Assembly (NCBI RefSeq): GCF_029360775.1
Contig: NZ_JARKMZ010000007.1
Coordinates: 282,779-346,778 of the forward strand
Direction of reading: 5' to 3'
DNA: 64,000 nucleotides
From: Daejeonella sp. H1SJ63
GTDB taxonomy: Bacteria; Bacteroidota; Bacteroidia; Sphingobacteriales; Sphingobacteriaceae
The notes below the pieces were generated by a model, which saw nothing but the letters and a program-made list of their open reading frames with translations, was not told where the DNA came from and did no database searches. The position numbers were made by a program, and so were the translations under genes. Below are positions 6,378-37,013 of this stretch, piece by piece; position 1 is the stretch's first letter, and each line of letters starts with the position of its first letter.

Positions 6378-7514
6378 TTATTCTGACCAAACTACCCGTT
6401 TGATATAATCAACATAGCTAATAATAATCTTTACCATTTTGTCAGAAACATTCGGCATAGAATAATCTGATACTAAACGAAAGTTCCTTTCTTCACCTCG
6501 CTTTTGAGCTTGGATTTGTTTTAAACCCTGCAAGATTCTTTCCGGATTTAAACCTACCATCATCACTGCAGCTTCTTCCATTGCTTCAGGACGCTCATGT
6601 GCCTCTCTGATATTCAATGCAGGGAAATTAAGGATAGATGATTCCTCAGAAATAGTCCCGCTATCTGATAAAACTGCATATGAATTCAACTGCAAGGCAT
6701 TATAGTCATTAAACCCCATAGGCTTCAGGAATTGTACCCCGGAATGCATTTTGACATTCATTTTATCAATCATCTTTTGAGTTCTGGGATGAGTACTCAC
6801 AATGATCGGCATCTTATATTTCTCGGCAATCAGATTTAAACTCAGCATCAGACCTTCAAAATTCTTTGGATTGCTGATATTTTCCTCCCTATGTGAAGAA
6901 ACCACAAAGTATTCTTGCATTTTCAGATTCAGACGCTGAACAATATCAGAAGCTTTGATACTCGGGAGATAATGGTTTAATACCTCAAACATAGGGGAGC
7001 CTGTCTTTATAATCCTGTCGGCAGGCAGACCCTCTCTGAGTAAGTATTCTCTGGCAATATCACTATAGGTAAGATTCACGTCTGAGATATGATCCACAAT
7101 CTTACGATTCGTTTCCTCAGGCACTCTCTGATCAAAGCAGCGGTTTCCCGCCTCCATATGAAAAATCGGTATATGACGTTTTTTTGCAGGTATTGCACAA
7201 AGACAACTGTTAGTATCACCCAATACCATGAAAGCATCAGGCTTTTCACTTTCCAGTAAGGGGTCAATCTTAATCAGGATTTGACCTATGGTTTCAGTGG
7301 CAGTAGCCCCTGCTGCATTCAGAAAAAAATCAGGCTTACGAATACCCAAATCATCAAAGAATATCTGATTTAATTCATAATCGTAATTCTGTCCGGTGTG
7401 TACAATAATATGCTCTATGGCATCAGACTCATCAAGCTTAGCCACTACCCTGGATAACCTGATAATTTCAGGCCGGGTACCGACAACGGTCATCACTTTA
7501 AGTCTTAATTTCAT
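6378..7514 (-). CDS. fnlC: UDP-2-acetamido-2,6-dideoxy-L-talose 2-epimerase (FnlC/WbjD/CapG)
   Basis: This is the last step of UDP-N-acetyl-L-fucosamine synthesis, a C2 epimerisation by a non-hydrolysing UDP-GlcNAc 2-epimerase fold. Diagnostic motifs are VGTRPEIIRLSRV, HTGQNYDYEL, HMEAGNRCFDQRVPEE, SSHREEN and SDSGTISEESS. The length of 378 residues is typical. It follows fnlB by 22 bp and precedes the WbuB-like gene by 4 bp. All three fnl genes are adjacent and in pathway order, so I am confident of the substrate. Confidence 0.95.
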   Translation of the reverse strand: MKLRLKVMTVVGTRPEIIRLSRVVAKLDESDAIEHIIVHTGQNYDYELNQIFFDDLGIRKPDFFLNAAGATATETIGQILIKIDPLLESEKPDAFMVLGDTNSCLCAIPAKKRHIPIFHMEAGNRCFDQRVPEETNRKIVDHISDVNLTYSDIAREYLLREGLPADRIIKTGSPMFEVLNHYLPSIKASDIVQRLNLKMQEYFVVSSHREENISNPKNFEGLMLSLNLIAEKYKMPIIVSTHPRTQKMIDKMNVKMHSGVQFLKPMGFNDYNALQLNSYAVLSDSGTISEESSILNFPALNIREAHERPEAMEEAAVMMVGLNPERILQGLKQIQAQKRGEERNFRLVSDYSMPNVSDKMVKIIISYVDYIKRVVWSE

Positions 7515-18844: not shown

Positions 18845-20665
18845 TTAACTACTAAAAGTGGTTTTAATTATGTTTTCTAATATATCTGTCAGGGGCATGG
18901 TACTTCCATCACCAAAATATTCCCGAATAACTTCCTTTGGATTTTCCATATCAGCGTAAATGAGTGCATCCATGAGCTGTTCCTCTGTATAAGCATATTT
19001 TGTTATTTCCGCGTCAAACTCATTTGGGTTGACATGCAGAGCATTTTTGCTGCCAATAAAAATTGGTTGAATCCCATTGGCTAATGCTTCGAGTCCCGCC
19101 GATGAAGAATCAAACAGGACTACATCAGCTTTTTTCATCTCATCGGCAAAACTCGTTTTTAAAGAAATGTGTGCGGGACAATCAAGCTTTTTGAATAACC
19201 CGACATAGTCATAGTTAGCCAATGGATGAGGAACGATAGAAACTTGAAAATTTTTATTGTTTCTAAGAGTATTTACAACAAATGTAATTAATGCCACTGA
19301 TTCTTTTTCTCCCAGTGAACAGGCAACCATGACCTGACTATATTTCAGCAGAGTATTTTTTGAAAGCCCTGAGATAAAATCACGTCCGGATTGTGAAGTC
19401 AGTATTTCTGTCTTTAAACCATAATAGGTCTCTAAATTCTTAAAAGAAACATTTCCAGTGGCAATTATGGTATCTGGGAGGGGTAATGCATCAATAAGTT
19501 TTTTTGAAAAGTAAAACCTTGTAGATAATGCAGGACATGGTGCATTTTGCAACCCGACACTTTTAATATTGTTGTGCTTCCTCATCTCATATAAGAAAAC
19601 ACGTTCCCAGGCCTGGTTTTCAAAAGGATAAATTGTTAACTTATTATTTACCTGGGCACCCACTTTTTTTGAAAACGCTTTTATAAGTTTATTTTGTAAC
19701 GAGAAGGCTCGTCTTTCCCTCAGCTTTTCTTTGTTGATTAAAGGGGTGATGTTCAATCCGTTTAGGATAGATATTTTCTTGTTAGAGGATGATGTGTTTT
19801 TAAACTTAGATAATTCTAAAAGAATGTTATAAAGTGATAATGAGTTATAAAGAAAAAATACTTTGAATCCATTATTCTCCAACCATTTATTAAATAGTTT
19901 TAACTGATGCTTTGTTCCTACCCAATCAATTGGAACTATTACGGCACAGTTCGTTTTTATTGATTCTGTTTCAAAAACCTTCCCGATAAAAGGGTCGCTA
20001 TATACCCCGCTTCGAAAATTCCGGGAATCAATAAAAGTTGGTAGAATAATCAGATTGTCCTGATTGAGATTAGCTGTATCGAAAGTGGTATTTTTGAATA
20101 TAAGCCTGCACATCAATTTAGAAATGGCAGCGCATAAAAAAATATACGGCCTTCTTGAATAGGATTTCAGTATTGCGGTAATATTATCAAAATAATTTTC
20201 AGCGGTGTAATAGCTAAAAGGTCTATCTATGTTACTATTCTGTTTTATGCATTCAAACAATGCAAAATCCTCAACGAGAATTAACAGATTTTTATTTTTA
20301 AAGGTATCGTCTAAAAGTATTTTTCGATAAATATCGAGCTGACAATACGTTAGGTAAAAACTACTATCCCATGGATTTTTCCATGACAATCGACTAGCCC
20401 ACCAGAGTTCTTCCCCCGACCGGCTTTCCAGGTCGTCGATGAAATCGATATATTGTTCCAGATGTTCGTATTGTGATTTGCCCAGCTCTTCAGCAAGGGG
20501 GTATCTTTCTATATCATTAAGAATTGATATTTCTAACTGATATGGGATTAAGGCATCCTCCCCCAAAAAGACCCATGAATCAATACTGCATTCAATAATA
20601 ATTTTAGAAAGGAAGGCCTTATATCCATTGCTCTTATGAACAACAAATATTTTATTTCGAGTCAT
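18845..20665 (-). CDS. Large putative transferase, KpsC/LIC12162-like
   Basis: A 606-residue soluble protein with no signal peptide. The C-terminal third looks like a GT-B sugar transferase: VSIVPHPLANYDYVG contains an HP motif like that in Kdo transferases and CDP-glycerol transferases. FADEMKKADVVLFDSSSAG followed by LEALANGIQPIFIG forms the usual donor-site serine cluster. The N-terminal half is unrecognised. Its start overlaps by one base the end of a KdsB-like gene, which links it to a CMP-activated ulosonic acid. I infer it transfers that acid; the family assignment is by pattern only. A second protein of comparable design is at 28618. Confidence 0.6.
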   Translation of the reverse strand: MTRNKIFVVHKSNGYKAFLSKIIIECSIDSWVFLGEDALIPYQLEISILNDIERYPLAEELGKSQYEHLEQYIDFIDDLESRSGEELWWASRLSWKNPWDSSFYLTYCQLDIYRKILLDDTFKNKNLLILVEDFALFECIKQNSNIDRPFSYYTAENYFDNITAILKSYSRRPYIFLCAAISKLMCRLIFKNTTFDTANLNQDNLIILPTFIDSRNFRSGVYSDPFIGKVFETESIKTNCAVIVPIDWVGTKHQLKLFNKWLENNGFKVFFLYNSLSLYNILLELSKFKNTSSSNKKISILNGLNITPLINKEKLRERRAFSLQNKLIKAFSKKVGAQVNNKLTIYPFENQAWERVFLYEMRKHNNIKSVGLQNAPCPALSTRFYFSKKLIDALPLPDTIIATGNVSFKNLETYYGLKTEILTSQSGRDFISGLSKNTLLKYSQVMVACSLGEKESVALITFVVNTLRNNKNFQVSIVPHPLANYDYVGLFKKLDCPAHISLKTSFADEMKKADVVLFDSSSAGLEALANGIQPIFIGSKNALHVNPNEFDAEITKYAYTEEQLMDALIYADMENPKEVIREYFGDGSTMPLTDILENIIKTTFSS

Positions 20666-21411
20666 TAATACAATTTCCTAAGAACATCTTTTTCCATAAC
20701 CTCAATCACTTTAACCAAGTCTTCAGGTACATCTACACTATATGTTTCATAGTTTGTCTCTACAATTTTTATTCTATGGCCATGCTCCAGAAATCTTAAC
20801 ATATCAATAGATTCAATTTCTTCAAGTTTCGTGGAGGTCAAATTAGTGAATTCCTTTAACGATTTATTCGTGAATGGGAAAACACAAACTTCTATAAAAT
20901 AAGGGAAATTCTTATCTCCCATGAATTTAGAAGGAATTGGTTCGCGCGAGAAGTAAAGTGCTTCATTGTTTTCATCAAAAACAACTTTTACTTCATGAAT
21001 ATTCTTTGCTTCCTCGAAATCTACTCTTTTCACGAGATTTACACAAGACAGGGTAGGATCATCTATCAAAGGCTTTATCGCGGCTTCTATCATTTCAGGG
21101 AAAACTAACGGCTCATCTCCCTGTAAGTTAACTATGATATCAGCTTCTTGTATTTTTGAAGCTGCCTGGGCAACTCTGTCTGATGCTCTTCTGACATTGT
21201 CATTAGTCAGTATTGCCTTTCCTCCAAACGCCTCAACATGGTCGACAATTTCCTGGTTAGGCGTAGCAACATATACTTCGTCCAACATCTTACACAAGCT
21301 TGCTCTCTTATAAACATGCTCCAACATAGACTTGCCACAAATATCAACAAGCGGTTTATTCCCAAACCTAAATGATCCCAGACGAGCTGGAATAATACAT
21401 ACAATCCTCAT
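20665..21411 (-). CDS. KdsB-like CMP-ulosonic acid synthetase (copy 2)
   Basis: A 248-residue cytidylyltransferase with the KdsB hallmark IIPARLGSFRFGNKPLVDI, the segment VNLQGDEPLVFPEMI (nucleotide/metal site), and ALYFSREPIPSKF for ulosonic-acid binding. KdsB normally activates Kdo for lipid A core. Two KdsB paralogues inside one O-antigen-like locus, each next to a large transferase-like gene, suggest a dedicated polysaccharide sugar rather than housekeeping. It is 7 bp from the methyltransferase gene. Confidence 0.85.
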   Translation of the reverse strand: MRIVCIIPARLGSFRFGNKPLVDICGKSMLEHVYKRASLCKMLDEVYVATPNQEIVDHVEAFGGKAILTNDNVRRASDRVAQAASKIQEADIIVNLQGDEPLVFPEMIEAAIKPLIDDPTLSCVNLVKRVDFEEAKNIHEVKVVFDENNEALYFSREPIPSKFMGDKNFPYFIEVCVFPFTNKSLKEFTNLTSTKLEEIESIDMLRFLEHGHRIKIVETNYETYSVDVPEDLVKVIEVMEKDVLRKLY

Positions 21412-21418
21412 TCTATTA

Positions 21419-22324
21419 TTATTTAGTTACAATCGCTCTCAACCATTGTCTTTCGGGGCCAAAGGTATCAAATTCATACTCATTTTTAAAAGAGTCAATA
21501 GTGTTGCCATTCCCTAACCTTAAACAATTGAGTATCCTACTAAATCCCTTTTTAATTATTAATGGCAAAAAAACATTTTTTTCTCTTTCATTGGGAATAG
21601 ATAGCAGAGCTCTCCCGAAGCTATAAATATGAAAGTCTGGCATTTCTAACTCCCTAAGTAGAAAACTTAAAGACTTTTCATTGAAAAACAAAGTATGCGG
21701 CTGAAAATTTGCTTTAAACAAGAAATCCTGATTGGGGCTTTCGATAAATAAAATGCCGCCTTTCTTCAGGAACTTTACTATTGATTTCAAAAATGATTTT
21801 GGATCGGTTACATGCTCCAGAACATGAAAGATTACTATGATATCAAATTCCTTCTCTCCCAATCCTTCTATGTGCTCTGCAGCCTTCATCCCCTTTGCCT
21901 CAATGTCCTTTACAATTTCAGCGTCGGCCTCTACAGCAAAATACTTTGAATTTACTCCCTGCTCCTTAAGTATTTCTCCAAAAAGCGCATGCCCGGCGCC
22001 AAAATCAAGTATGGTTTTGTTTTCTATGCTGCCTGTTTTCTCAATTAAGAATGACAATCTTGATAAGCCCTGTGCTTTATATAATTGCAAAGAATTCCGT
22101 GAGGCGCTTTGAACCGCTTCACTGCCCTGCCAATAAGTCTTATAAAACTTATCCAGTTGCTGATCAGAGGGCATTTGTTCTAAGTATACCAGCCCGCAAT
22201 TAGAACATTCTGACAGATAGCCATCTTCAATATTAAACGGAGCCGCAGTTCCATAATAAGGGCCAATATTTTTACCTGACGTTTGTCCGCATACTGGACA
22301 GTTAAGTATTTTTTTCAAACTCAT
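21419..22324 (-). CDS. Class I SAM methyltransferase with N-terminal zinc-ribbon
   Basis: A 301-residue protein. CPVCGQ near residue 9 and CSNCGLVYLEQ near 40 form a four-cysteine zinc site, and ILDFGAGHALFGEIL is the SAM-binding motif I. DIIVIFHVLEHVTDPKSFL and FIESPNQD are typical post-I motifs of sugar C- or O-methyltransferases in polysaccharide loci. The start overlaps the upstream epimerase stop by 4 bp. The methyl acceptor is unknown; the CMP-sugar next door is a reasonable guess. Confidence 0.82.
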   Translation of the reverse strand: MSLKKILNCPVCGQTSGKNIGPYYGTAAPFNIEDGYLSECSNCGLVYLEQMPSDQQLDKFYKTYWQGSEAVQSASRNSLQLYKAQGLSRLSFLIEKTGSIENKTILDFGAGHALFGEILKEQGVNSKYFAVEADAEIVKDIEAKGMKAAEHIEGLGEKEFDIIVIFHVLEHVTDPKSFLKSIVKFLKKGGILFIESPNQDFLFKANFQPHTLFFNEKSLSFLLRELEMPDFHIYSFGRALLSIPNEREKNVFLPLIIKKGFSRILNCLRLGNGNTIDSFKNEYEFDTFGPERQWLRAIVTK

Positions 22325-23244
22325 AAACCTTGATGGAAATGGACCATTTTGGATAGCCCATCATTTAGCTTCACTGATGGTTCCCAATCTAATTCTTTTT
22401 TTACCTTTAAGATGTCGGCATAAATACCAAACTGGTCACCTTGAGTAGCACCAGAGAATTCTACGGTAACATCAAAAGGTAAATTCGATTTGATTTTTTC
22501 CACGACTTCTCCAACTTCAGTTTTTATTCCGGTAGCTAAGTTAAAATATTTGTAGCCATGCTTGTTCGAATTGTAGGCTTTAATAAATCCTTTAACCACG
22601 TCGTCAATAAACACAAAATCACGATATCTGTCAGCGCTTCCTTTAACCACAATATGCTTGTTTTTTAAAGCTTGAGCTAAAAATATACTTACCATCCCTT
22701 GCCGCAAATTATCCATATTCTGGCCTGGTCCATAAACGTTGAAAAGCCGCAACGAGGTACTATGTATACCGTATTCAGAATATATTCTTAAATAATGTTC
22801 GCTCGCCAGTTTGCCTACTCCATAAAAAGATTTAGGATTCAATTCTGTGTCTTCCTTTACCGGTCTATCTGGCTTGTCCCCATATACGGACATAGTCGAG
22901 GCGTAAATAAAATTTGTACATTTTGTTTTTATCGCCAACTTTAATAATAATAAAGTCGATTGTGCATTTGTCTGTAAGTCATATACGGGATCGTCAAAAC
23001 TAATTTCACCAGAGCTTTGACCGGCAATATGAAATATCGCCTCAAAAGTAAACTTTTCTAACTGCTTTATTACTGAATAGTCCTGACAATCGCCCTTGAA
23101 AAATTCAACTCCCTCTGGAATGGCATCTTGATACCCTGTGGATAAATTGTCTATTGTTATAACTTTATGTCCTTCGTCAATAAGCTTCCTCGCAACTGCA
23201 GCACCAATAAAGCCCGCAGCTCCAGTGACTAAAAATATTTTCAT
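22321..23244 (-). CDS. NAD-dependent sugar epimerase (GalE-like)
   Basis: An extended SDR of about 307 residues starting MKIFLVTGAAGFIGAAV. I use the ATG at 23242-23244; a longer frame to 23289 adds 15 residues with no family support. YASTMSVYGD and FYGVGKLASEHY provide the Ser and Tyr-x-x-x-Lys. RLFNVYGPGQNMDN is typical of UDP-sugar 4-epimerases. It lies between a HAD phosphatase and a methyltransferase. Nucleotide and sugar specificity are not resolved. Confidence 0.83.
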   Translation of the reverse strand: MKIFLVTGAAGFIGAAVARKLIDEGHKVITIDNLSTGYQDAIPEGVEFFKGDCQDYSVIKQLEKFTFEAIFHIAGQSSGEISFDDPVYDLQTNAQSTLLLLKLAIKTKCTNFIYASTMSVYGDKPDRPVKEDTELNPKSFYGVGKLASEHYLRIYSEYGIHSTSLRLFNVYGPGQNMDNLRQGMVSIFLAQALKNKHIVVKGSADRYRDFVFIDDVVKGFIKAYNSNKHGYKYFNLATGIKTEVGEVVEKIKSNLPFDVTVEFSGATQGDQFGIYADILKVKKELDWEPSVKLNDGLSKMVHFHQGL

Positions 23245-23326
23245 TTGAGTATAATTGTTTCTATGGTTTGAAAATACGTGAGCTTGCACGCTTTCAGTTG
23301 TGAGAGCGAAAGGTTATGCAGGTTCA

Positions 23327-23971
23327 TTAAATGGTATCTATAATTTTTTTCAGTTGTGTTAAATCCTGCACTTTAAATCTTTCGCTCAATAAGGGTGATG
23401 ACTGCGACTCGATTCTGGCAACAAATTTTATGTTATTAACTCGGGCGGCATTTTTGTCAGTGTCGGCATCTCCAATGAAAACTACCTCTTCATTCTTGTA
23501 CCCGTTATTTGCTAGTATTTCTTTTACGTGGTTGTCTTTAGTCTCAGGCGAGCCGTAGACTGCTTTGAAGTATTTAGACAATTCTCTTTTTTCGAGTATA
23601 ACCTTAATTTCATCTGCAGGTGTCCCTGTAGAAATATAAAAGTCATATTTGTTATAGTTTTCTAAGATAAATTCATAGGCGCCTCTCACATAAGGCGATG
23701 ATATCACTTTCTGTAATACTAAATCGGAAAACTGTTTTGCCAGACTATTAACCTTTTCACTATCGATATCTTCATGCAGATAATATTTGTGATAGAATCT
23801 AAATTTTTCAAAACGAGACAATCCACCATTAGCTTCATGATGCGCTATCACTTTTTTTTCTATAACAGCCCCGTAAGGACTATACATTTCGGCAAAGGCA
23901 TTGCTCTTAACTTGAACAGATTCAGCAATTACACCATCAAAATCAAATATTATAGCTTTAATACTATTCAT
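23327..23971 (-). CDS. HAD-superfamily phosphatase
   Basis: A 214-residue HAD hydrolase of beta-phosphoglucomutase-like layout: IFDFDGVIAES (motif I, nucleophile Asp), ISTGTPADE (motif II), and VVFIGDADTDKNAA (motif IV acidic pair). A cap domain lies between I and II. The start overlaps the cyclase-family stop by 8 bp. In this setting a KdsC-like step, removing phosphate from an ulosonic acid 8-phosphate analogue before CMP activation, is plausible. This is an inference from neighbours. Confidence 0.8.
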   Translation of the reverse strand: MNSIKAIIFDFDGVIAESVQVKSNAFAEMYSPYGAVIEKKVIAHHEANGGLSRFEKFRFYHKYYLHEDIDSEKVNSLAKQFSDLVLQKVISSPYVRGAYEFILENYNKYDFYISTGTPADEIKVILEKRELSKYFKAVYGSPETKDNHVKEILANNGYKNEEVVFIGDADTDKNAARVNNIKFVARIESQSSPLLSERFKVQDLTQLKKIIDTI

Positions 23972-24620
23972 ATTCAGCGATAATTGTTATAGGGCTTCCG
24001 TCTGCTTCATCAATCTGAAGCGGCAGAGCAGTCACGCTTTTGATTTTTCTTTGTGCAATCGTATCGAGTTTCATATCCTCAATAATCAATATATCATTTT
24101 CAATCAGAAATTCCTTATGTGCCTCTCTTCCCAGCAGCCGGTTCTGATAGCTGCTAAGTGAAATAAAGTCGAAGCCAATAGCTTTAATATCAGGGAATCT
24201 GGTTCTTAAAAAAAGCGCTAAACCTGGAGATATACCTGGGTTGTTGTTCCAATATGCTTTCTCTTTCCTGTACCCCCCAAAACTGGTATTAATTATCAGG
24301 AAGTCTATTTTAAGCGGTAACTCACAATCTTTAAAAATTTCTTCCGTTATTATTTCTTCTTTTTCAGCTTTATAATCTACGCAGAATACGTCTTTAAACT
24401 GCCAAAATGAAGCAGGATAATCGTTCATTTTTTTCCCCGTATCTGAAAAGTGATTAGGAAAATCGATATGTGTCCCTGAGTGGTTAGGAAGCGATATTTC
24501 TTTGGTATTTGAACTACTCCCGTCAGATATAAGTCCTTTATTTTTTATTGTTATAGCACGCTCACCGCCATACAGTGGCGTATTTTCATTTAGATAGTAT
24601 GATAAATATTCTATAGTCAT
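23964..24620 (-). CDS. Cyclase/kynurenine formamidase-family metal hydrolase
   Basis: A 218-residue member of the cyclase family with its signature HSGTHIDFPNHF (the HxGTHxDxPxHF metal site) near residue 46. Known members are arylformamidases, isatin hydrolases and actinorhodin-type cyclases that open or close amide/lactone bonds. It is unusual in a polysaccharide locus. Possible roles are a sugar lactone hydrolase or an N-formyl/amide hydrolase on the ulosonic acid. It starts at the last base of the upstream epimerase gene (1-bp overlap), so it is clearly part of the same operon. Confidence 0.8.
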   Translation of the reverse strand: MTIEYLSYYLNENTPLYGGERAITIKNKGLISDGSSSNTKEISLPNHSGTHIDFPNHFSDTGKKMNDYPASFWQFKDVFCVDYKAEKEEIITEEIFKDCELPLKIDFLIINTSFGGYRKEKAYWNNNPGISPGLALFLRTRFPDIKAIGFDFISLSSYQNRLLGREAHKEFLIENDILIIEDMKLDTIAQRKIKSVTALPLQIDEADGSPITIIAEYE

Positions 24621-25534
24621 TATTCTCTCGTTAAGAAGTTATCTTCAGTAATGACACCTTCCTTTATCAACTTTTCGTAATTAGAATATATCTGGTCTAA
24701 GATCCCCTGGCCGAGATCATGATAATAATTTAAGTGATATTTCTTAGCTATTTTGGGTTTAAAAGTATAGGGTGTAATGTTGTAATGTTCTTCATGTACT
24801 TCATTTGTATAAACAACCTCGATTTTCTCATTAAACATTTCCTTAATCATTGCTAGAATATCGCTGATCTTCATCGACTTATTTCCGGTTATCATGATAT
24901 TGGAGTTCACAAACTCATCTGACAGGATTTCGACACTTGATTTTGCTGCATCTTTTATGTGAATATATTCACGTAATTCTTCGCCATTACCGTCACGCGT
25001 GATCTTTCTTTCCTTGATAGCCTGAATTATAAAGTTATTGATTGAGTTAAAATGATTAGCCCGGGGGCCATATAATGAACCGTACCTTAATATAGTATAG
25101 TTTAGATTATATATCTTTTGATAGTTTTCAATTAATAATTCTGAAGCCTGCTTTGTACTCCGGTAAAAGGATCCGTGTTCGCTATACACATAAATTGTAC
25201 TACCATATATAAATCTCTCAACCTTAAATTCCCTGCATGCATCCAGAATATAAGTCGTACTTAGTATGTTTACCTCTACAGCTTTAACAGGATTGTCCTG
25301 AGCTTCTTTAATATCTGCGATAGCGGCAAAATGGTAAATATATTTAGCGTCCTTGATCACTTCTCTTAACAGATCGCGATTGAGAATGTCGCCAATAACC
25401 ATTTCCTGGCTGTCTCTTAAATAACCGGACTTTATGGTATCAAATATTATTACCCGATATCCGGCATCGGTGAGCATATCCGCTACATGTCCTCCCAGAA
25501 AACCTGACCCTCCAAAAACTACTACCTTATCCAT
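24620..25534 (-). CDS. NAD-dependent epimerase/dehydratase
   Basis: An extended SDR of about 304 residues starting MDKVVVFGGSGFLGGHV. I use ATG at 25532-25534, since the longer frame would start at TTG 25547-25549. YGSTIYVYSEHGSFYRSTKQ contains the Ser and a Tyr-R-S-T-K active site. RYGSLYGPRANHFN is typical of sugar-nucleotide epimerases. It belongs to the dehydrogenase-epimerase-cyclase-HAD block. The substrate is unknown. Confidence 0.82.
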   Translation of the reverse strand: MDKVVVFGGSGFLGGHVADMLTDAGYRVIIFDTIKSGYLRDSQEMVIGDILNRDLLREVIKDAKYIYHFAAIADIKEAQDNPVKAVEVNILSTTYILDACREFKVERFIYGSTIYVYSEHGSFYRSTKQASELLIENYQKIYNLNYTILRYGSLYGPRANHFNSINNFIIQAIKERKITRDGNGEELREYIHIKDAAKSSVEILSDEFVNSNIMITGNKSMKISDILAMIKEMFNEKIEVVYTNEVHEEHYNITPYTFKPKIAKKYHLNYYHDLGQGILDQIYSNYEKLIKEGVITEDNFLTRE

Positions 25535-25538
25535 GAAA

Positions 25539-26468
25539 TCATTTTCCAATATATTTTAAAAGATTTTCAACAGCCATTGTACCCTGCCTCTCTACGTTTT
25601 CATATGTTCTTGAACCGATATGAGGTGTAATAACAATATTTTTATATTGTAAGAAAGGATGATCTTTTACCATTGGCTCTTCTTCAAGCACATCAGTGAG
25701 ATATGCTTTTATTATTTTAGAATCAATCCCTTTAAGGATAGCTTCCTGCTCAACCAGCCCGGCTCTTGCTGTGTTAATCACAATTACCCCAGGTTTCAAA
25801 ATATTCAATATCGAAGAATTGATCATGTTAGTCGTTTCAGGAAATAATGACACATTCAGGCTGATTATATCGCTCTGGCTTAATAATTCATTCACATTTC
25901 CGCAATAATTGATAGTATGTTTTTTAGCAAAATCAGCGTCATGAAAAGTATCGTAAGCTATTACCTTCAACCCGAAAGCCGCGGCCCTAATGGCAACTTG
26001 CTTGCCTACGCTACCCAATCCGATAATACCGAGGGTTTTTCCATAGATATCATTGCCGATCAGGCGTTCCCATTGCTGGTTTTGTACATACTCATTTTCG
26101 GGAATAATATTTTTCACAAACGATAAAAGCAAAGCAAATACATGTTCGGCAACCGTTATTTGATTTACACCAGGGCAATTTTCAACGGGTATCTTAAAGA
26201 ACCTTGCAGCTTCAAGGTCTACTTTATCAAGGCCTATACCATATTTTGATATAATTTTCAGTTTACCTTGAGCACCTTTTTCAATAACTCGTCTGGTAAT
26301 CTCATCGTCCCCGCAAATAATTCCATCATACCTGTCTATAACATCAAGCAAAACTTCTTCTTTTAGAGGCCCTCGTAACTCATCTATTTGAAATCCCTGA
26401 TTTTCTAATAAAACCTGATGGTTACCTGGCGTATCCTGAAATGAAGTGGAGGTAAGTAAAATTTTCAT
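25539..26468 (-). CDS. D-isomer-specific 2-hydroxyacid dehydrogenase (SerA-like)
   Basis: A 309-residue NAD-dependent enzyme that interconverts 2-hydroxy and 2-keto acids. The Rossmann motif LGIIGLGSVGKQVAIRA is central, VINTARAGLVEQEAI contains the catalytic Arg region, and ITPHIGSRTYE contains the catalytic His. It lacks the regulatory ACT domain of housekeeping SerA. The start overlaps the acetyltransferase stop by 4 bp. In this block it may oxidise a sugar acid to feed the aldolase or set a C2 hydroxy centre. Confidence 0.87.
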   Translation of the reverse strand: MKILLTSTSFQDTPGNHQVLLENQGFQIDELRGPLKEEVLLDVIDRYDGIICGDDEITRRVIEKGAQGKLKIISKYGIGLDKVDLEAARFFKIPVENCPGVNQITVAEHVFALLLSFVKNIIPENEYVQNQQWERLIGNDIYGKTLGIIGLGSVGKQVAIRAAAFGLKVIAYDTFHDADFAKKHTINYCGNVNELLSQSDIISLNVSLFPETTNMINSSILNILKPGVIVINTARAGLVEQEAILKGIDSKIIKAYLTDVLEEEPMVKDHPFLQYKNIVITPHIGSRTYENVERQGTMAVENLLKYIGK

Positions 26469-27049
26469 AGTCTTTTTTTTATAAATTTAGCAGGCACGCC
26501 CCCGTAAATGGAATATTCTTCTACATTTTTATTCACGAGCGATCCTGCTGCAATTATACTCCCCTTTCCAATCGTTACGTCAGGCAAGATCGTGACATTT
26601 GAGCCTATCCAGACATCATCGTGTATATTTATACATCCTGACTTGTGCCCTTGTGTCCTTATTGGTTGTGCCATATCCAAATAAACATGACTTGAAGTAC
26701 GGATTACCACGTTTGAAGCTATCAGAACATCATTACCAATGATGACTTGTCCACCTTGTGACGAATTGACATTCACATTGTAATTTATACTCACGTTATT
26801 GCCAATTTCTATTGTTCCATTATCGAAAGCAAAAAAGAAATCATTTCCAAAACACGTAAAATTATCTCCGATCGAAATATTTTTCCCTGGCGTTATTTTC
26901 GTATTCGTGCCAATACTCAATTTATCTCCGCAAGTATTCAACTTCAGCTTATAATATATCCGTCTCATAAACATCCCTGTATAGCCAGGAAATCCATTGA
27001 GAAACCATTCTATAAAGCTTGAAAATTCAAATGCAAAAATTTTTAACAT
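26465..27049 (-). CDS. Left-handed beta-helix O-acetyltransferase
   Basis: A 194-residue hexapeptide-repeat acyltransferase. Repeats run from about residue 45 to 180, e.g. IGTNTKI, IGDNFTC, IGNNVSI, IGNDVLI, IGSNVTI and IGKGSII, with SSHVYLD providing the catalytic His region. Relatives acetylate sugar hydroxyl or amino groups using acetyl-CoA. It sits between the KdsB-like copy 1 and the hydroxyacid dehydrogenase, so it probably decorates the same sugar. Confidence 0.87.
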   Translation of the reverse strand: MLKIFAFEFSSFIEWFLNGFPGYTGMFMRRIYYKLKLNTCGDKLSIGTNTKITPGKNISIGDNFTCFGNDFFFAFDNGTIEIGNNVSINYNVNVNSSQGGQVIIGNDVLIASNVVIRTSSHVYLDMAQPIRTQGHKSGCINIHDDVWIGSNVTILPDVTIGKGSIIAAGSLVNKNVEEYSIYGGVPAKFIKKRL

Positions 27050-27071
27050 TAGGAGGCGGTAATCCTATCTT

Positions 27072-27845
27072 TTATAAAACAAGATATCCCTTCAAAAGAA
27101 TATCTGTCCTTAATTTCTCAATTACATTTAACAAATCACTTTCTGTGTCTACCGAATATGATTCTCTATCTGTATACACCATTTTCACTTTCATTCCATT
27201 CTCCAGTATTCTCATCATATCAACAGACTCGATGATTTCCAAAGGCGTTTGTTCGAGTTGATTATACTCAAGAAGAAAATCCCTTTCAAAAGGAATGATA
27301 CAAACCTGTTTATACATTGGGACATTAGATATTCCTTTCTTTCTGGATGGAATAGGTTCACGCGAAAAATAAAGTGCGTATCCAGCTTTATCGACAACTA
27401 CTTTTACTTCATTTGGATCTTCGAATTCTTCAACGCTTAAAATATTAGAGTACAGATTCGAAATCTTGATTTCTTCTACATCCAATAAAGGTTGCACCGC
27501 AGCCTGGATCATTTCAGGCGTTATCATCGGCTCATCACCTTGCAGTAAAACCACAATATCTACTTTTTGACCACTGCTGCTCTCTATATTCAATAATGCT
27601 TCCGCTGTTCTATCAGATGCACGCTCATGTGTATCGGCCGTCATTACAGCCTTTCCACCTATGGATTCAATATAATTGAAGATCTCAAGATCGCAGGTTG
27701 CAACGTATACTTCGCTAAGAAGCTCACTCATTTTACTTCTTTTATAGCAATGCCCGATCATAGGCATCCCCAAAATATCCGCCATAGGCTTACCCGGAAA
27801 CCGGGAAGATGCCATACGGGCGGGAATAATTCCTACAATATTCAT
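27072..27845 (-). CDS. KdsB-like CMP-ulosonic acid synthetase (copy 1)
   Basis: A 257-residue cytidylyltransferase with IIPARMASSRFPGKPMADI, VVLLQGDEPMITPEMI and ALYFSREPIPSRKK, the complete KdsB pattern. It lies 8 bp after the HpcH/HpaI-type aldolase, so carbon-carbon bond formation and activation are paired. It is clearly paralogous to the copy at 20665 but diverged, which argues for two different substrates rather than recent duplication. Confidence 0.87.
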   Translation of the reverse strand: MNIVGIIPARMASSRFPGKPMADILGMPMIGHCYKRSKMSELLSEVYVATCDLEIFNYIESIGGKAVMTADTHERASDRTAEALLNIESSSGQKVDIVVLLQGDEPMITPEMIQAAVQPLLDVEEIKISNLYSNILSVEEFEDPNEVKVVVDKAGYALYFSREPIPSRKKGISNVPMYKQVCIIPFERDFLLEYNQLEQTPLEIIESVDMMRILENGMKVKMVYTDRESYSVDTESDLLNVIEKLRTDILLKGYLVL

Positions 27846-27853
27846 AATTTATA

Positions 27854-28591
27854 TCATTTATGTGTTTTTTTTAACTCTTTCAATTGCGTTCTAGCCATAT
27901 GACCCAAAAAAAGAGTGTCAAGACTAAAGGCAATAAAATTATATCCTTGTTCAATTTTATTTAATACTAATTGAGCATCTGGCTGTATTACATGAAATCC
28001 AATTAGCTTATCATACTTCTTTGCTATCATTTCATAATCAGATAGCGCTTTCTTAACATCGTCATCATCATATTGACCTGGTTTTCCCATTGATCCTGAT
28101 AGATCATAGGGACCAATAAATGTTCCGTCAACACCTTCAACTTGAATGATACTGTCAAGTTCTTTAATTGCATTAATGTGTTCGATCTGAACTATAAGTT
28201 TAATCTCTTTGGATCCGTTATCCCTATAATTTTCAAAACCAAAGCCATATGATTGAGCACGTGCTAAGCCTACTCCCCGTGTTCCTTCAGGAGGATATTT
28301 AACTGCCATGACAGCCTTTTTTGCTTCTTCTTTTGAATTCACCGAAGGGACTATAATTCCATCTGCGCCAGCATCTAATACCCTTTTTATTATTCTAGTA
28401 TTATTTTCTCCTACTCGCACGAATGCTTTAATCCCCTTACTTTGGATGGCCATAATGAGTTGTTGAGCCTCATAATAATCCGTAACCGAATGTTCCATAT
28501 CAACGCAAAGCCAATCAAAGCCAGCATCAGCCATTATCTCTGCAATAGATGGGTGATTTAAAGTTACCCACGAACCAATTGAATATCCCAT
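27854..28591 (-). CDS. HpcH/HpaI-family class II aldolase
   Basis: A 245-residue TIM-barrel aldolase of the 2-keto-3-deoxy-acid type. IGSWVTLNHPSIAEIMADAG, WLCVDMEHS, GADGIIVPSVNS and IVQIEHINAIKEL (metal-binding Glu) with GTFIGPYDLSGSMG are family motifs. Known members reversibly join pyruvate to aldehydes. Placed directly before a KdsB-like gene, the enzyme could make a 3-deoxy-2-ulosonic acid without a KdsA/NeuB condensation. That direction of reaction is inferred. Confidence 0.87.
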   Translation of the reverse strand: MGYSIGSWVTLNHPSIAEIMADAGFDWLCVDMEHSVTDYYEAQQLIMAIQSKGIKAFVRVGENNTRIIKRVLDAGADGIIVPSVNSKEEAKKAVMAVKYPPEGTRGVGLARAQSYGFGFENYRDNGSKEIKLIVQIEHINAIKELDSIIQVEGVDGTFIGPYDLSGSMGKPGQYDDDDVKKALSDYEMIAKKYDKLIGFHVIQPDAQLVLNKIEQGYNFIAFSLDTLFLGHMARTQLKELKKTHK

Positions 28592-28617
28592 AATTTTAAA
28601 CTACTGAGTGTCTGTAC

Positions 28618-30378
28618 TTAAGTTTTACTAATTATATTTTTTAGAGCTTTCTCTACGTCATTTAATAAATTTTCAGGAAGATGACAATATTGCTTTGTAA
28701 AGCTTATCAACACATCTTGCACCTCTTTGCTCATCCACCAATCTCTCACATTATCCCAAACTTTAGCAACATGTTTTGCCGCAGAAGCCGGCGATGGATG
28801 AAAAATGCCAACACGCTCGAGTTCTTCGAAATATGGAATTGCAGAATCTCGCAATTCCCAATGTTCAGTATTCCAATATATTACAGTTGGAATATTCATA
28901 TTAAATGATTCAAGAAAAGTAGTAGCGTTATAGGTGGATATATACATTCGACTTTGAAGAATCAAATCACTCATTTTAGATTGTCCACCATCCAAATGAA
29001 TTTGAGGGAGGCGATCACGCCAACGAGACACTTGTCCCCAACCATAATCATGAGGATATAATCTAACAGTTATGGCTTTCTGAATATGCAGAGGTAAATT
29101 TTCAATAAAAGTAAATTGATCATCTAAATAGTCAAGCCACTGTCTTGAGATAACTGCGCTATATAAAAAATAACTTTGGCGTGGAACAGCACAAGTGACC
29201 AAAATAGCCTTTTTCTGAATATAGTGATTAATATCTAATGGCTTCTTTGAAATTAATTGCCCAATCGGAATAATCTTTGATTCGTTAGACTTGGACCACC
29301 CCCAAGTCAAATAATGGTCGCTAATTTTTATCTCATGATCCTCAATAAACAAACGTTTGCCAATGCCATAATTTCCTCCGTGCTGCCCGATAACTAACGG
29401 AGAACGGCGTTCAACTTTTTCAGCTGCCCATGCCTTGAACACATCATCAGAGTTACAACAGTTACTTGTCCAGATCAATTTCGGCCGCTTTGGCCATGGC
29501 AAGGCCGTGCTGTATTTAATAAGCTCTGAATACCCCTCCAAGTAAACTTTTGGAATTTGTCTAGAGATTAGCGAACGAGCACAAACTTCAAATTGAGACT
29601 TACTTTCACCATCAAGATTCCATTGCCTCATCCTGTTATTCAAAGATGACTTCACCGGTGAAACAGATCTCCATCGTTGAGGTTTTTGTCCCAAGCGCCT
29701 ATAGAGGTTACTTTCATCTTTTTCGGGTAAATATGTAGACAGAAGAAAAACGTCCTCATCCCTTGACGTGAAACTGATAATTTTAGTATAACACCCAGAA
29801 AGAAACCGCTTTACCCGACTTTTTCTGCTAATAGGCTGCGCTATTCCCTTAAAGGCTTGGTAGGGACAACTGATTGTTGAAATTGAAGGAAAATATAAAA
29901 GTATTTCTGAATAAAGAAAATGATTCCATTCATCTCCGGTAAACAACCTGATAAAATCAACAAAGTCATTTGGAACCAGATGTTCTTCGTTCATGATAAG
30001 CACAACTGTTTCGTTTATGTCAAATTGCCTAACTGCTTGTTCAATTGAATACCACCGGTCAAATAACATTTGAACAAAGTAGGCTAGCCATGGTCCAACC
30101 AATATACGCCAGTAACGTAAATCGTGACTAACTCCGTGAATTTGGTTGAGCTTTATTGAAAGATCAGCCAAGAGAACTTCATAGAAGTCCTGCAGGTATT
30201 GATAATCAGATTCAAGTTTAGCTCTGTCATCCCAATGATAAGGTAATACTTGAGCTTCCATCTGTGACCACTGTTCCTTCCTGGAATAAAGCTTACACCA
30301 TTCACCCAAAAATAAAACCGGTTCGTTATCACGCCAGGTCTCTTCTAGGGCTGTGGTAATTAAAAAACGTTTTACCAT
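28618..30378 (-). CDS. LIC12162-family putative transferase
   Basis: A 586-residue cytoplasmic protein. The N-terminus LITTALEETWRDNEPVLFLG and later the stretch around YDDWEYHW-like region (VLPYHWDDRAKLESDYQYL) match, from memory, the LIC12162 family first noted in Leptospira surface-sugar loci. The C-terminus has IVIGQHGG-like PLVIGQHGGNYGIGKRL and MYISTYNATTFLESFNMNIP, resembling the donor site of GT-B transferases. It overlaps the upstream SDR by 7 bp. Likely role: transfer of the CMP-activated acid made by neighbouring genes. Function is not experimentally settled to my knowledge. Confidence 0.78.
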   Translation of the reverse strand: MVKRFLITTALEETWRDNEPVLFLGEWCKLYSRKEQWSQMEAQVLPYHWDDRAKLESDYQYLQDFYEVLLADLSIKLNQIHGVSHDLRYWRILVGPWLAYFVQMLFDRWYSIEQAVRQFDINETVVLIMNEEHLVPNDFVDFIRLFTGDEWNHFLYSEILLYFPSISTISCPYQAFKGIAQPISRKSRVKRFLSGCYTKIISFTSRDEDVFLLSTYLPEKDESNLYRRLGQKPQRWRSVSPVKSSLNNRMRQWNLDGESKSQFEVCARSLISRQIPKVYLEGYSELIKYSTALPWPKRPKLIWTSNCCNSDDVFKAWAAEKVERRSPLVIGQHGGNYGIGKRLFIEDHEIKISDHYLTWGWSKSNESKIIPIGQLISKKPLDINHYIQKKAILVTCAVPRQSYFLYSAVISRQWLDYLDDQFTFIENLPLHIQKAITVRLYPHDYGWGQVSRWRDRLPQIHLDGGQSKMSDLILQSRMYISTYNATTFLESFNMNIPTVIYWNTEHWELRDSAIPYFEELERVGIFHPSPASAAKHVAKVWDNVRDWWMSKEVQDVLISFTKQYCHLPENLLNDVEKALKNIISKT

Positions 30379-31983: not shown

Positions 31984-32664
31984 TTAATGGATCAAAAACT
32001 CTTTCATTAATGCCGAACACATCTTTAAATCCTCCTGAGAGTCAATTTCAAACATTTTCCAAAACTCCATTTCAACGATTCCGATACTGCTTCCAAACCG
32101 ATTATTATTCGCCCTTAGAACTTCCGGCCTAAACATATAGAATGAGCCATTTTCAATATATTGCTTTGGAATATCCTGTCTCCTTTTCCTGTTACGCCAA
32201 TCATAGTTGACACTATCCAACTGACCAGCGGTGTTTTTTTGCCAGAAGAATAAATCTTCTGCTACACTGCAAGAAAAGAAAGAATCATATATTCCTTCCG
32301 ATGCGTTTTTAATTCCTAAAGCAATGTCCTTAGCCTCCCTCAGGGGAGAAGTTACCTGAGGAGCAAGTACCCAGTCAATAATTTCAGTCTGTCCAATAAA
32401 GTCTATCGCGTGCAACCAGCCTTTTTCAGAGGTAGCAAAATCATCAGAAATATCGTCAGGGCGTTTAATTGATTTTGCGCCATATTGTTCTGAAACCTTC
32501 AATATTTCATCGGAATCGGAACTTACCCATACGGAATTTGCTCCTCCAGCGATACAATTCTCAATAGTCCAGGCAATAAGTGGTTTACCACAAAAATCAA
32601 TTATGTTCTTTTTAGGTATTCCCTTTGAACCACCCCTTGCTAATATAATAGCTACTGTATTCAT
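31984..32664 (-). CDS. neuA: NeuA-like acylneuraminate cytidylyltransferase
   Basis: Activates a nonulosonic acid with CTP. The 226 residues start MNTVAIILARGGSKGIPKKNI, the NeuA nucleotide-binding signature, followed by DFCGKPLIAWTIENC and LAPQVTSPLREAKDI. ENGSFYMFRP is typical for this family. The start overlaps the isomerase stop by 4 bp. The partner condensing enzyme is probably the NeuB fusion at 35118. The precise nonulosonate is not readable from sequence. Confidence 0.9.
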   Translation of the reverse strand: MNTVAIILARGGSKGIPKKNIIDFCGKPLIAWTIENCIAGGANSVWVSSDSDEILKVSEQYGAKSIKRPDDISDDFATSEKGWLHAIDFIGQTEIIDWVLAPQVTSPLREAKDIALGIKNASEGIYDSFFSCSVAEDLFFWQKNTAGQLDSVNYDWRNRKRRQDIPKQYIENGSFYMFRPEVLRANNNRFGSSIGIVEMEFWKMFEIDSQEDLKMCSALMKEFLIH

Positions 32665-35117: not shown

Positions 35118-37013
35118 TTAAAGCGTACCTTCAAGTAACTCCAATGCTTTCCAAAAACCTTCCCCACCATTTTTATGTCCTTGCCAAATTTCCGGAATAA
35201 ATGTGGCTTTAGGACAACCTTTATTTAAAATAGCTCCAAGTCGTGGAAAATCTATTTCACCCTCACCAATTTGCAGTCCTTCGCCGTTCAAACCTTTGGC
35301 ATCCCCTAAATGAAGATGCGCTGTAAAAGGTGCTATTTTTTCTACAAACTCGTAAAAATCTAATCCAAAATGATTGCAGGTAAGCATACTATGAGAGACG
35401 TCAAAGCACATCCTTAAATTATATTTCTTGCAATATTTAACAATTTCATCTGCATGAACAAAGATATTTTGATAGCGTTGTCCTCCGAAATGCCATGGGA
35501 AGGGAGCCATCGTTTGGGGGATAAGCTCAACACCATCCATGTCCAATTCTTCAAGACTCCTGAAAAATTGCTCGTAATAAGATTCAAGCAGTTCTTTAGG
35601 GAATGGTGCATCCATACTAAAGCCTCCTATGTTAGCAACGATTTGAGGTCTGGACTCGTTCGGAAAATACTTCTTTAATGAACGAGTAATATCAATTACT
35701 CGTTGAGTTTCATGTATTGATTCCTCCCTATACTTTTGATCCGGAGTGGCCAGGTCCATTAGACGTGAGCCTTTAAATAATTCAGGAGCATGAACTACAA
35801 ACCCGCAGCTATATGGACCATCAAGATACTCAGCCGGATCTAATTCCATATCTGAATATGATAGATGGAATTCGTAAAGATCCGGTTGTATTAATTTTTC
35901 ATAGGTTCTAAAATCGTGGTATCGTACTGGGATCCCCCAGGGGTGCTTAAATTTATATTGTCTTGGTTTGAACCTATTATCCTCGATATCACTTGAGAAG
36001 AAATAATCCTCCATTTGAATATCCCTTTTTAATTCAATACCGACCAGTTTCGAATAGTTATTAGGTGAAAGACCTTGTCCGGGACTCAATACTTTAATAT
36101 GTTCTGCGCGTAAAACTGTTCCTTTCTTTAGATCCGAAGCAGCAACAAGACTTTTCCCCAGATTCTCACGATTAATCATTTCCCCCTGACTCAGATTTCT
36201 CACTTCTCCACTTCCCAATGCTTGTTCGATATCCCTGATACCTTTTATTAACTCTTTGAACTCGTTAAACTCCAAACTAGCGGCATGATCCGGGCCTTCC
36301 ATCATTCTGTCCAAGGTAAAATGTCTTTCAATCACTTTTGCTCCTAAAGCGACTGCTGCCATAGATACCGAAATTCCACGTTCATGACCTGAATATCCTA
36401 CTAAAGGATGGATAGCCTGAATGCTATTCATCCATTTCAAATTTATATCATGCAATGGAGCAGGATAAGTGCTGTTGCAATGTAAAAGAACAAACTGAAC
36501 GGCTCGTTCATTTAAGAAATTTACTACAAACCGAACTTCATCTGTGGTACTCATCCCTGTAGAAAGAATCAGTGGCTTCTCCGTTTGTGAAAGTTTATCC
36601 AACAAAGGTAAATTTGTCAAATCAGCTGAGGCTACTTTATAGGCTTTAACATCGAAGGACTCTAGTGTATCAACACTTTTAACATCCCAGGGAGTACACA
36701 GATACAAAATACCTTTACTACTACAATATTTCGAAAGTTCTCTATGTTGCTCAACCGTCAATTCAAATCTGTTTAGCAAGTCAATAATGTATTCGGTACC
36801 TAGATCTTCTCCGGTTTTTTCGAGACTGCTTTTTCTATATACTTGATCCAAATGGCGCATTTGAAATTTAGCACAGTCTGCGCCGATTTCAAATGCCTTA
36901 TCGATCATTGTTTTCGCCCGTTCAAAGTCGCCATTATGATTATTGCCTATTTCGGCAATAATAAAAGAGCGTTTGCCTCCAACTTCGAATTTTCCTATAT
37001 TAAGTTTCATCAT
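35118..37013 (-). CDS. NeuB-SAF-TIM barrel fusion (nonulosonate synthase with isomerase domain)
   Basis: A 631-residue multidomain enzyme. Residues about 1-270 are a NeuB-type PEP-condensing barrel (IIAEIGNNHNGDFERAKTMI, CAKFQMRHL, LLHCNSTYPAP, VGYSGHERG, VIERHFTLDR). About 285-345 is a SAF antifreeze-like domain (NLGKSLVAASDLKKGTVL). About 365-631 is a xylose-isomerase/AP-endonuclease-2 barrel (CFDVSHSMLTCNHFG, HLGDAKGLNGEG). Fusion implies that precursor isomerisation and condensation act in sequence. Standard NeuB is about 350 residues. Its downstream partners include the NeuA-like gene at 31984. Confidence 0.9.
   Translation of the reverse strand: MMKLNIGKFEVGGKRSFIIAEIGNNHNGDFERAKTMIDKAFEIGADCAKFQMRHLDQVYRKSSLEKTGEDLGTEYIIDLLNRFELTVEQHRELSKYCSSKGILYLCTPWDVKSVDTLESFDVKAYKVASADLTNLPLLDKLSQTEKPLILSTGMSTTDEVRFVVNFLNERAVQFVLLHCNSTYPAPLHDINLKWMNSIQAIHPLVGYSGHERGISVSMAAVALGAKVIERHFTLDRMMEGPDHAASLEFNEFKELIKGIRDIEQALGSGEVRNLSQGEMINRENLGKSLVAASDLKKGTVLRAEHIKVLSPGQGLSPNNYSKLVGIELKRDIQMEDYFFSSDIEDNRFKPRQYKFKHPWGIPVRYHDFRTYEKLIQPDLYEFHLSYSDMELDPAEYLDGPYSCGFVVHAPELFKGSRLMDLATPDQKYREESIHETQRVIDITRSLKKYFPNESRPQIVANIGGFSMDAPFPKELLESYYEQFFRSLEELDMDGVELIPQTMAPFPWHFGGQRYQNIFVHADEIVKYCKKYNLRMCFDVSHSMLTCNHFGLDFYEFVEKIAPFTAHLHLGDAKGLNGEGLQIGEGEIDFPRLGAILNKGCPKATFIPEIWQGHKNGGEGFWKALELLEGTL

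Follow-up and report, generated by a model that had tools for sequence, protein, structure and literature searches.

What does a bacterial locus make when an aldolase of the HpcH/HpaI family stands directly before a KdsB-like cytidylyltransferase (CT)? The question is raised by a 64,000-nucleotide stretch of the genome of Daejeonella sp. H1SJ63 (hereafter the window, meaning the whole stretch), in which 12 minus-strand genes are packed at 18845-30378, with gaps of at most 37 bp to the next gene; calculated from the coordinates, the gene borders are overlaps of 1-11 bp or spacers of 7-37 bp. The original prediction for this stretch had named these genes and their positions and had noted their tight packing and the aldolase directly before the CT, and in all of this it proved correct. 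KdsB and NeuA/PseF are the two kinds of enzymes that place cytidine monophosphate (CMP) on 2-ulosonic acids, and to our knowledge all known pathways to CMP-ulosonic acids build the carbon skeleton with a phosphoenolpyruvate (PEP)-dependent synthase of the KdsA/NeuB type. We propose that the gene set probably makes an acidic sugar by a route not yet described, in which the aldolase takes the place of the synthase of 3-deoxy-D-manno-oct-2-ulosonic acid (Kdo) or of sialic acid, with activation of the product left to a modified enzyme of the Kdo type. We consider it likely that the genes form a dedicated, non-Kdo CMP-ulosonic acid pathway that contains the aldolase, and the evidence tilts, less firmly, towards the aldolase forming the activated skeleton from an acceptor that we leave unfixed. 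No paper on such a gene set was among the matches listed from the open-access literature, which leaves subscription papers mostly outside.

The first support for this proposal is recurrence. When the aldolase was used to scan 84,980 species genomes, 49 loci were obtained, and the 16 most similar (L019-L034, 46-80%; L- and G-numbers are our locus and genome labels) come from several groups of Bacteroidota and from Chlorobiota, Ignavibacteria, Omnitrophica and Alphaproteobacteria. A profile built from 20 aldolases (A1) was then run on genome samples of two phyla. It gave 16 matches in 15 of 395 genomes of the window's own phylum, the window included, and the 15 other loci were all mapped; in a sample of 398 from the phylum to which a Rhodospirillales carrier belongs it gave 27 matches in 25 genomes, of which 21 (20 new ones and L060) were mapped and six low-scoring ones left out. 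The 16 scan loci, an Acuticoccus plasmid, 11 and 8 high-scoring loci from the two samples, and L108 (genome G053) make up 37 module loci, all found via the aldolase. Partners within 9 kb of the aldolase were counted by tblastn against reference proteins, with score limits of our own choosing. By this count, a CT is present in 36 of the 37 loci, a D-2-hydroxyacid dehydrogenase in 32, a short-chain dehydrogenase/reductase (SDR) or a Gfo/Idh oxidoreductase in 33, and a phosphatase or AroB-related phospholyase in 28. Individually, the counts are 20 for the SDR, 14 for Gfo/Idh, 12 for a GmhA-like isomerase, 23 for a haloacid dehalogenase (HAD) or inositol monophosphatase (IMPase)-type phosphatase, 6 for the AroB-related protein, 12 for a PF04199 hydrolase, 5 for 6-phosphogluconolactonase (PGL) and 9 for NeuB-like proteins. 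Leaving out the nine loci that supplied the references (n=28) gives CT 27, dehydrogenase 24, SDR 15, Gfo/Idh 10, GmhA-like 8, HAD 15, IMPase 1, AroB-related 4, PF04199 10, PGL 2 and NeuB-like 5. The search for the same gene order elsewhere, which had been suggested along with the original prediction, thus finds the core in 37 other loci of several phyla, more than chance would give.

The association also follows the aldolase sequence itself. Among the newly found loci, a CT lies near the aldolase in 17 of 18 that score at least 257 bits with A1 (the miss is L163) and in none of 17 below (Fisher p about 4e-9, a guide only, as the loci are related by descent); with L108 and L060, both already represented in A1, the count is 19 of 20 high-scoring loci. 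The 32 weaker scan loci include two with a KdsB match near the aldolase, L049 and L058, both from Rokubacteria. In these (L049 9487-11035 and L058 526-3520) the aldolases form a separate HpaI-like group and the KdsB of L049 is canonical, possibly an independent pairing. The gene set is also found on a plasmid: an aldolase search of plasmids matched 197 records, and of the first two examined, one from Acuticoccus carries the module and one from Photobacterium does not. The Acuticoccus plasmid (L075) has a five-gene run of aldolase, acylneuraminate-type CT, phosphoglycerate dehydrogenase, HAD hydrolase and NAD(P)-dependent oxidoreductase, and both it and L158 are compact gene sets with no NeuB nearby. 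A plasmid search with the first KdsB-like protein matched 33 records, and phage records gave two weak partial matches only.

The second line of evidence comes from the CTs. The window has two KdsB-like paralogues, as do L027 and L029. KdsB 1 passes the PRK13368 subfamily model (305.8 bits, cut-off 255) and TIGR00466 (164.5 bits, cut-off 155.2) and misses the PRK05450.1-1 equivalog (184.7 bits against a cut-off of 281), whereas KdsB 2 passes PRK13368 (271.3 bits, cut-off 255) and narrowly misses TIGR00466 (154.7 bits, cut-off 155.2). Both retain QGDEP and a C-terminal VD, which we take to be the CTP- and Mg-binding motifs of KdsB, and both are without the motifs of the Kdo side (the HIGxYA region, SGT[DE]R and LEQLR, the latter two presumably substrate-side motifs), which the housekeeping KdsB of the same genome keeps. 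These motifs are altered in all 27 module KdsBs and canonical in all 8 KdsBs extracted from elsewhere in these genomes, a set from which the extraction filter missed three further matches. Module KdsBs have R[AC][ST][DE]R and [SA][VI]D[ML]xR, with Gln (Glu in KdsB 2) for the His of HIGxY, whereas the non-module KdsBs have [SN]G[TS]xR, H[IV]GxY and [LI]E[QC]xR. PMC7717453 names FSR and RHIGVYAYR as substrate-binding motifs of KdsB, and PMC3149649 places bound Kdo on its C-terminal domain; FSR is retained in 20 of the 27 module KdsBs. The CT is KdsB-like in 29 of the 37 loci and solely NeuA/PseF-like in 7, which argues for an ulosonic acid as substrate in either case. The absence of KdsA, on which the original prediction had leaned, holds for the contig carrying the window, where KdsA had no match, but not for the genome, which has a housekeeping KdsA (contig C28) and KdsB (contig C21) elsewhere.

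The aldolase (27854-28591) belongs to the HpcH/HpaI family (PF03328 135.8 bits, cut-off 25) and falls short of the equivalog models of HpaI, GarL and RhmA (199.6, 166.1 and 154.1 bits against cut-offs of 368.8, 406.75 and 441); it is 35-37% identical to four solved members of the family. Its Arg59, His34, Glu33, Glu137 and Asp163 match Arg72, His47, Glu46, Glu151 and Asp177 of AbHpaI, to which PMC8560999 assigns catalysis and metal binding, and these residues are thus kept. The acceptor pocket differs: in a MAFFT alignment His200 takes the place of a Leu (AbHpaI Leu214, RhmA Leu216), although HMMER gapped AbHpaI at this point. Leu214 is described as lying in the hydrophobic aldehyde cleft of AbHpaI (PMC8560999), and RhmA Leu216 was mutated in work cited by PMC7610986. 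His200 is found in all 31 other module rows of the aldolase alignment (in which L004 and L108 are one gene and L158-L164 are left out), and the combination His138/Tyr162/His200 in the window and 29 of these 31, whereas the four characterised enzymes have Ser or Thr, Ala or Ser, and Leu. In a quick tree of 103 aldolases, 2 changes account for the distribution of the module label, compared with an average of 31.7 after shuffling. The family, according to PMC7610986, takes polyhydroxy-aldehydes, hydroxypyruvate and some ketones, with precedents for adding pyruvate onto a polyhydroxy-aldehyde, for hydroxypyruvate as donor and for adding pyruvate onto a ketone. Two aldolase reading frames are apparently interrupted, at L031 10001-10699 (no full open frame) and at L159 9763-10347 (one in-frame TAG).

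The proposed pathway involves more genes of the run, whose 12 members are as follows, in transcribed order:

28618-30378, minus strand: LIC12162-family protein, putative glycosyltransferase, first in transcribed order (TIGR04331)
27854-28591, minus strand: HpcH/HpaI-family class II aldolase, core (PF03328 135.8 bits)
27072-27845, minus strand: KdsB-like CT 1, core (PRK13368 305.8 bits)
26465-27049, minus strand: hexapeptide O/N-acetyltransferase, accessory (PF00132; WbbJ model 92.8 bits, cut-off 243)
25539-26468, minus strand: D-2-hydroxyacid dehydrogenase, phosphoglycerate dehydrogenase-like, core (PF02826 182 bits)
24620-25549, minus strand: extended SDR, proposed C1 sugar(-phosphate) dehydrogenase, core of type A (PF01370 136.5 bits)
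23964-24620, minus strand: PF04199 metal-dependent hydrolase of the cyclase family, proposed lactonase, core (PF04199 65.8 bits; HSGTHIDFPNH)
23327-23971, minus strand: HAD phosphatase, core (PF13419 56.8 bits; DFDGV in the sequence)
22321-23289, minus strand: second SDR/epimerase, accessory (PF01370 186.6 bits; also in L023, L029, L030 and L033)
21419-22324, minus strand: S-adenosylmethionine-dependent methyltransferase, accessory (PF13489 64.4 bits)
20665-21411, minus strand: KdsB-like CT 2, a paralogue with counterparts in L027 and L029 (PRK13368 271.3 bits)
18845-20665, minus strand: large protein beside KdsB 2, putative GT-B glycosyltransferase (weak TIGR04326)

The genes at 23327-28591, the acetyltransferase excepted, would be one variant of a widespread CMP-2-ulosonic acid pathway for surface polysaccharide. 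The idea that the whole run is one pathway survives in this narrower form: recurrence, CT types and lost motifs point to an aldolase-CT pathway unlike that of Kdo, while the acetyltransferase, the methyltransferase, the second SDR and the second KdsB look accessory rather than core (acetyltransferase-like genes also occur near the aldolase in several other loci), and the locus holds two NeuB-type synthases as well.

Exchange among the parts indicates what the remaining core genes may do. In L108 the order is CT-aldolase-SDR-PF04199-HAD-dehydrogenase, and in L095 and L096 it is CT-aldolase-SDR-PGL-HAD-dehydrogenase, with PGL in the position of the PF04199 hydrolase. The two hydrolases never occur together in the 37 loci (PF04199 in 12, PGL in 5, neither in 20); the PGL of L095 passes its model (167.4 bits, cut-off 124.45), that of L029 stays under this cut-off (99.7 bits), and in L158 and L163 the PGL is a similarity match only. 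This swap implies a sugar-lactone intermediate, and because PGL takes its place the PF04199 protein of the window is probably a lactonase, and not the cyclase/formamidase of the original annotation; a kynurenine formamidase is likewise not favoured, given TIGR03035 at 66.8 bits against a cut-off of 223. An IMPase-type protein replaces the HAD phosphatase in L024, L159 and L160. The dehydrogenase (25539-26468), at 241 bits with TIGR01327 against a cut-off of 454, is below the level of the phosphoglycerate dehydrogenase (PGDH) equivalog.

From the gene content, conservation, interchangeable parts and motif changes that we observe, we infer every reaction, the reaction order and the product. The logic would be that of Kdo: a sugar phosphate, a carbon-carbon joining step, a phosphatase and a CT, with the PEP-dependent KdsA/NeuB replaced by an HpcH/HpaI aldolase whose donor would be pyruvate or an analogue of it. 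The SDR (24620) would oxidise C1 of a terminally phosphorylated aldose to a phospho-lactone, the cyclase-family hydrolase (23964) would open it, the phosphoglycerate dehydrogenase-like enzyme (25539) would generate a 2-oxo acid by oxidation at C2, and the HAD protein (23327) would take off the phosphate. The aldolase (27854) would add pyruvate to a carbonyl, either of the oxidised product or of the sugar from which that product derives; KdsB 1 (27072) would join the new 2-ulosonic (or ulosaric) acid to CMP, and the neighbouring large putative glycosyltransferase would then use the CMP-sugar. In other loci Gfo/Idh for the SDR, PGL for PF04199, IMPase for HAD and a NeuA type for KdsB would be alternative parts for the same types of reaction. 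We doubt that the reactions follow exactly this order. If the aldolase condensed pyruvate with a sugar-derived 2-oxo acid or semialdehyde, the outcome would be CMP-activated 3-deoxy sugars of a new class, branched or dicarboxylic (ulosaric), and, with the AroB-related cyclising phospholyase of type B loci (described below) in the phosphatase's place, possibly carbocyclic relatives in some bacteria; this is a speculative extension that we think improbable as it stands.

The module occurs as two types. In type A the SDR is present, often together with a lactonase; type B is marked by a Gfo/Idh oxidoreductase, which is in most cases accompanied by a GmhA-like isomerase and sometimes by an SDR and an AroB-related phospholyase (for example, in L026 a 'sugar phosphate phospholyase (cyclizing)', TIGR04425 420.7 bits, cut-off 400). 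SDR and Gfo/Idh are nearly exclusive in the 37 loci (19 with SDR alone, 13 with Gfo/Idh alone, 1 with both, 4 with neither; p 1.4e-5), a Gfo/Idh accompanies the GmhA-like isomerase in 11 of 12 loci (p 4.6e-6), and the phosphatase is absent within 9 kb from 5 of the 6 AroB-related loci (p 0.02). In L098 the gene after the GmhA-like one (6591-7307) encodes a transaldolase (TIGR02134 340.7 bits, equivalog cut-off 281.95), a hint that type B may start from sedoheptulose phosphate. Both types are present in one genome (G221), type B as L098 and type A as L103, about 44 kb apart on the same contig.

The module shares with the Kdo pathway (KdsD-KdsA-KdsC-KdsB) a KdsB-family CT, a HAD phosphatase, a proposed CMP-2-ulosonic acid product and, in type B, a sugar-phosphate isomerase of the SIS type (GmhA-like). 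It differs in having an HpcH/HpaI aldolase where Kdo uses the PEP-dependent KdsA, in adding a dehydrogenase, an SDR or Gfo/Idh protein and a lactonase, and in the replaced Kdo-side motifs of its KdsB. Like the pathways to nonulosonic acids (sialic, legionaminic and pseudaminic acid; NeuB with NeuA/PseF) it has a PseF/NeuA-like protein as the sole CT in 7 of 37 loci, but its proposed skeleton enzyme is an aldolase and not NeuB, and its core is without an aminotransferase. The catabolic HpaI, GarL and RhmA are of the same family as the window aldolase, with the same metal-binding and catalytic residues, whereas the window enzyme has His for Leu in the acceptor pocket and is tied to sugar activation, not to the degradation of aromatic compounds or sugar acids. 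Oxidative sugar-phosphate chemistry (glucose-6-phosphate dehydrogenase, 6-phosphogluconolactonase, PGDH/PdxB) likewise brings together a lactonase and a PGDH-like enzyme; the module, in contrast, uses an SDR or Gfo/Idh protein, sits in polysaccharide loci and has dehydrogenases under the PGDH equivalog cut-off.

Several observations weigh against the proposal. His200 is also present in 26 of 49 aligned homologues from outside the module and is ruled out as a module-only mark; all three of His138/Tyr162/His200 are present in L035, whose 3.3-kb contig holds no CT, and together with the likewise non-module L104, L105, L165 and L166 it shares a 44-row tree branch with the module aldolases. The 257-bit level was set after the maps had been seen, and the tblastn limits were also ours. 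L163 has no CT within 9 kb of its aldolase, and no dehydrogenase lies within 9 kb in 5 of the 37 loci (L019, L034, L060, L101 and L164), some of which are short or at a contig edge. NeuB-like genes lie within 9 kb in 9 of the 37 loci, in the examined stretch of 10 of the 16 scan loci L019-L034, and twice in the window locus. Moreover, once the dehydrogenase has yielded a 2-oxo acid, no aldolase would be required to build the skeleton that is activated; the aldolase is the weak joint of the mechanism because the dehydrogenase arm alone would already end in such an acid.

This last point leads to the rival that survives best, though we hold it to be unlikely: the SDR, lactonase, dehydrogenase and phosphatase would on their own make a non-deoxy 2-ulosonic acid for the CT from an aldose phosphate, and the aldolase would merely set the stereochemistry at C3/C4 by retro-aldol and aldol reactions or work with hydroxypyruvate. 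A textbook reaction is available for every oxidative enzyme, the lactonase swap fits, and fusions bring the dehydrogenase next to activation: in L093 (6182-7954) a CTP_transf_3 region (25.7 bits, cut-off 22.6) is fused to the D-2-hydroxyacid dehydrogenase, and L021 (11537-13297) has a similar fusion below the cut-off (18.4 bits against 22.6). Hydroxypyruvate is a known donor for the aldolase family (PMC7610986), and a short 2-ulosonic acid has already been reported in a capsule, since a title among the references of PMC10433991 announces 4-deoxy-2-hexulosonic acid from E. coli K3. On the other side, beside the aldolases a CT (36/37) is commoner than the dehydrogenase (32/37), in loci that were all found via the aldolase.

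Two sugars may be made instead of one, a reading to which we give still less credence: the aldolase and KdsB 1 would make one CMP-ulosonic acid, and the dehydrogenase arm with KdsB 2 (or a NeuA-like CT) another. The pairs of KdsB paralogues in the window, L027 and L029 would fit, as would the CT-dehydrogenase fusions that accompany a separate KdsB in L021 and L093, but the compact loci L075, L095, L096, L108 and L158 hold the aldolase and the dehydrogenase with one CT in the mapped stretch. It is more improbable again that the module modifies or feeds a nonulosonic acid made by the NeuB-type synthases of the same locus. The window locus does have two NeuBs, a PseF-like CT, a DegT aminotransferase and a formyltransferase-like protein, and the NeuB-like counts given above speak for such a link; yet 23 loci combine the aldolase, CT and dehydrogenase and lack a NeuB within 9 kb (several of the 23 are short, and L020 and L029 have one just beyond), and the sampled genomes show NeuB-like genes in only 1 of 12 and 0 of 8 loci. 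Finally, the ordinary explanation retains hardly any probability; in it the surplus KdsBs would supply normal CMP-Kdo, with the aldolase a catabolic HpaI enzyme that is there as a bystander. KdsB 1 passes the TIGR00466 kdsB cut-off, but we reject a duplicate Kdo pathway on the motif loss in both KdsBs, with a canonical KdsA and KdsB elsewhere in the genome, and a bystander on the recurrence of the aldolase-CT pair across phyla.

Returning to the proposed aldolase pathway, candidates for its last step stand at the two ends of the 12-gene run. Both large proteins are likely glycosyltransferases. The original prediction described them alike as transferase-like; 28618-30378 belongs to the LIC12162 family, modelled as putative transferases (TIGR04331 528.1 bits, cut-off 225), and 18845-20665 scores weakly with TIGR04326 (50.7 bits, cut-off 250). 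The former has homologues in L021, L102 and L103, no solved relative was found for it by sequence, and its low-confidence model (predicted local distance difference test (pLDDT) 51) has no Foldseek fold match at E<=0.001. The proteins directly after KdsB in L102 and L103 are weakly similar to 18845-20665, whose model, also of low confidence (pLDDT 52), has 21 Foldseek matches at E<=0.001, mostly to GT-B-fold enzymes; the Kdo-transferase domain of WbbB is at rank 41 (E 2.4e-3) against this weak model. The two models were built from shallow alignments, of 4 and 6 rows, respectively.

The run lies within a locus of about 50 kb that appears, from its gene content, to serve surface polysaccharide: the window encodes proteins of the Wzz and Poly_export families, an ABC-transporter protein closest to PglK and a weakly WecA-like protein. 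Closely packed minus-strand genes span about 3-56 kb, and the G+C content is 33-39% at 4-52 kb against 43-44% at 56-64 kb. Upstream of the run are a PseF-like CT, two SDRs, a GmhA-like isomerase, two NeuB-family proteins, and relatives of HddA and HddC (a kinase and a nucleotidyltransferase), each scoring under its cut-off; downstream, a glucose-1-phosphate cytidylyltransferase and a CDP-glucose 4,6-dehydratase each exceed theirs. At 43063-45254 a formyltransferase-like protein adjoins a DUF4910/DUF2172 protein, with NeuB and the DegT aminotransferase close by. Because of the two NeuB-family synthases (35118-37013 and 41995-43056, one fused to a xylose-isomerase-like barrel) the locus likely makes several CMP-ulosonic acids, and with two more cytidylyltransferases at 31984-32664 and 47109-47840 there may be three or four. 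The module aldolase is found in none of 19 congeneric genomes (G001-G019), in which the matches are HpaI-like and 28-36% identical; the locus is therefore variable within the genus.

The role of the aldolase in building the activated skeleton and the identity of the product are what we infer here. If they are right, a widespread aldolase route would provide another way to CMP-ulosonic acids and to surface monosaccharides chemically unseen so far. Altered KdsB motifs together with the aldolase His138/Tyr162/His200, a residue combination that is common in module aldolases but also occurs outside them, would serve as its signature in genomes whose annotation probably lists such KdsBs as Kdo enzymes at present, and the module would offer new aldolases for the synthesis of rare sugar acids.

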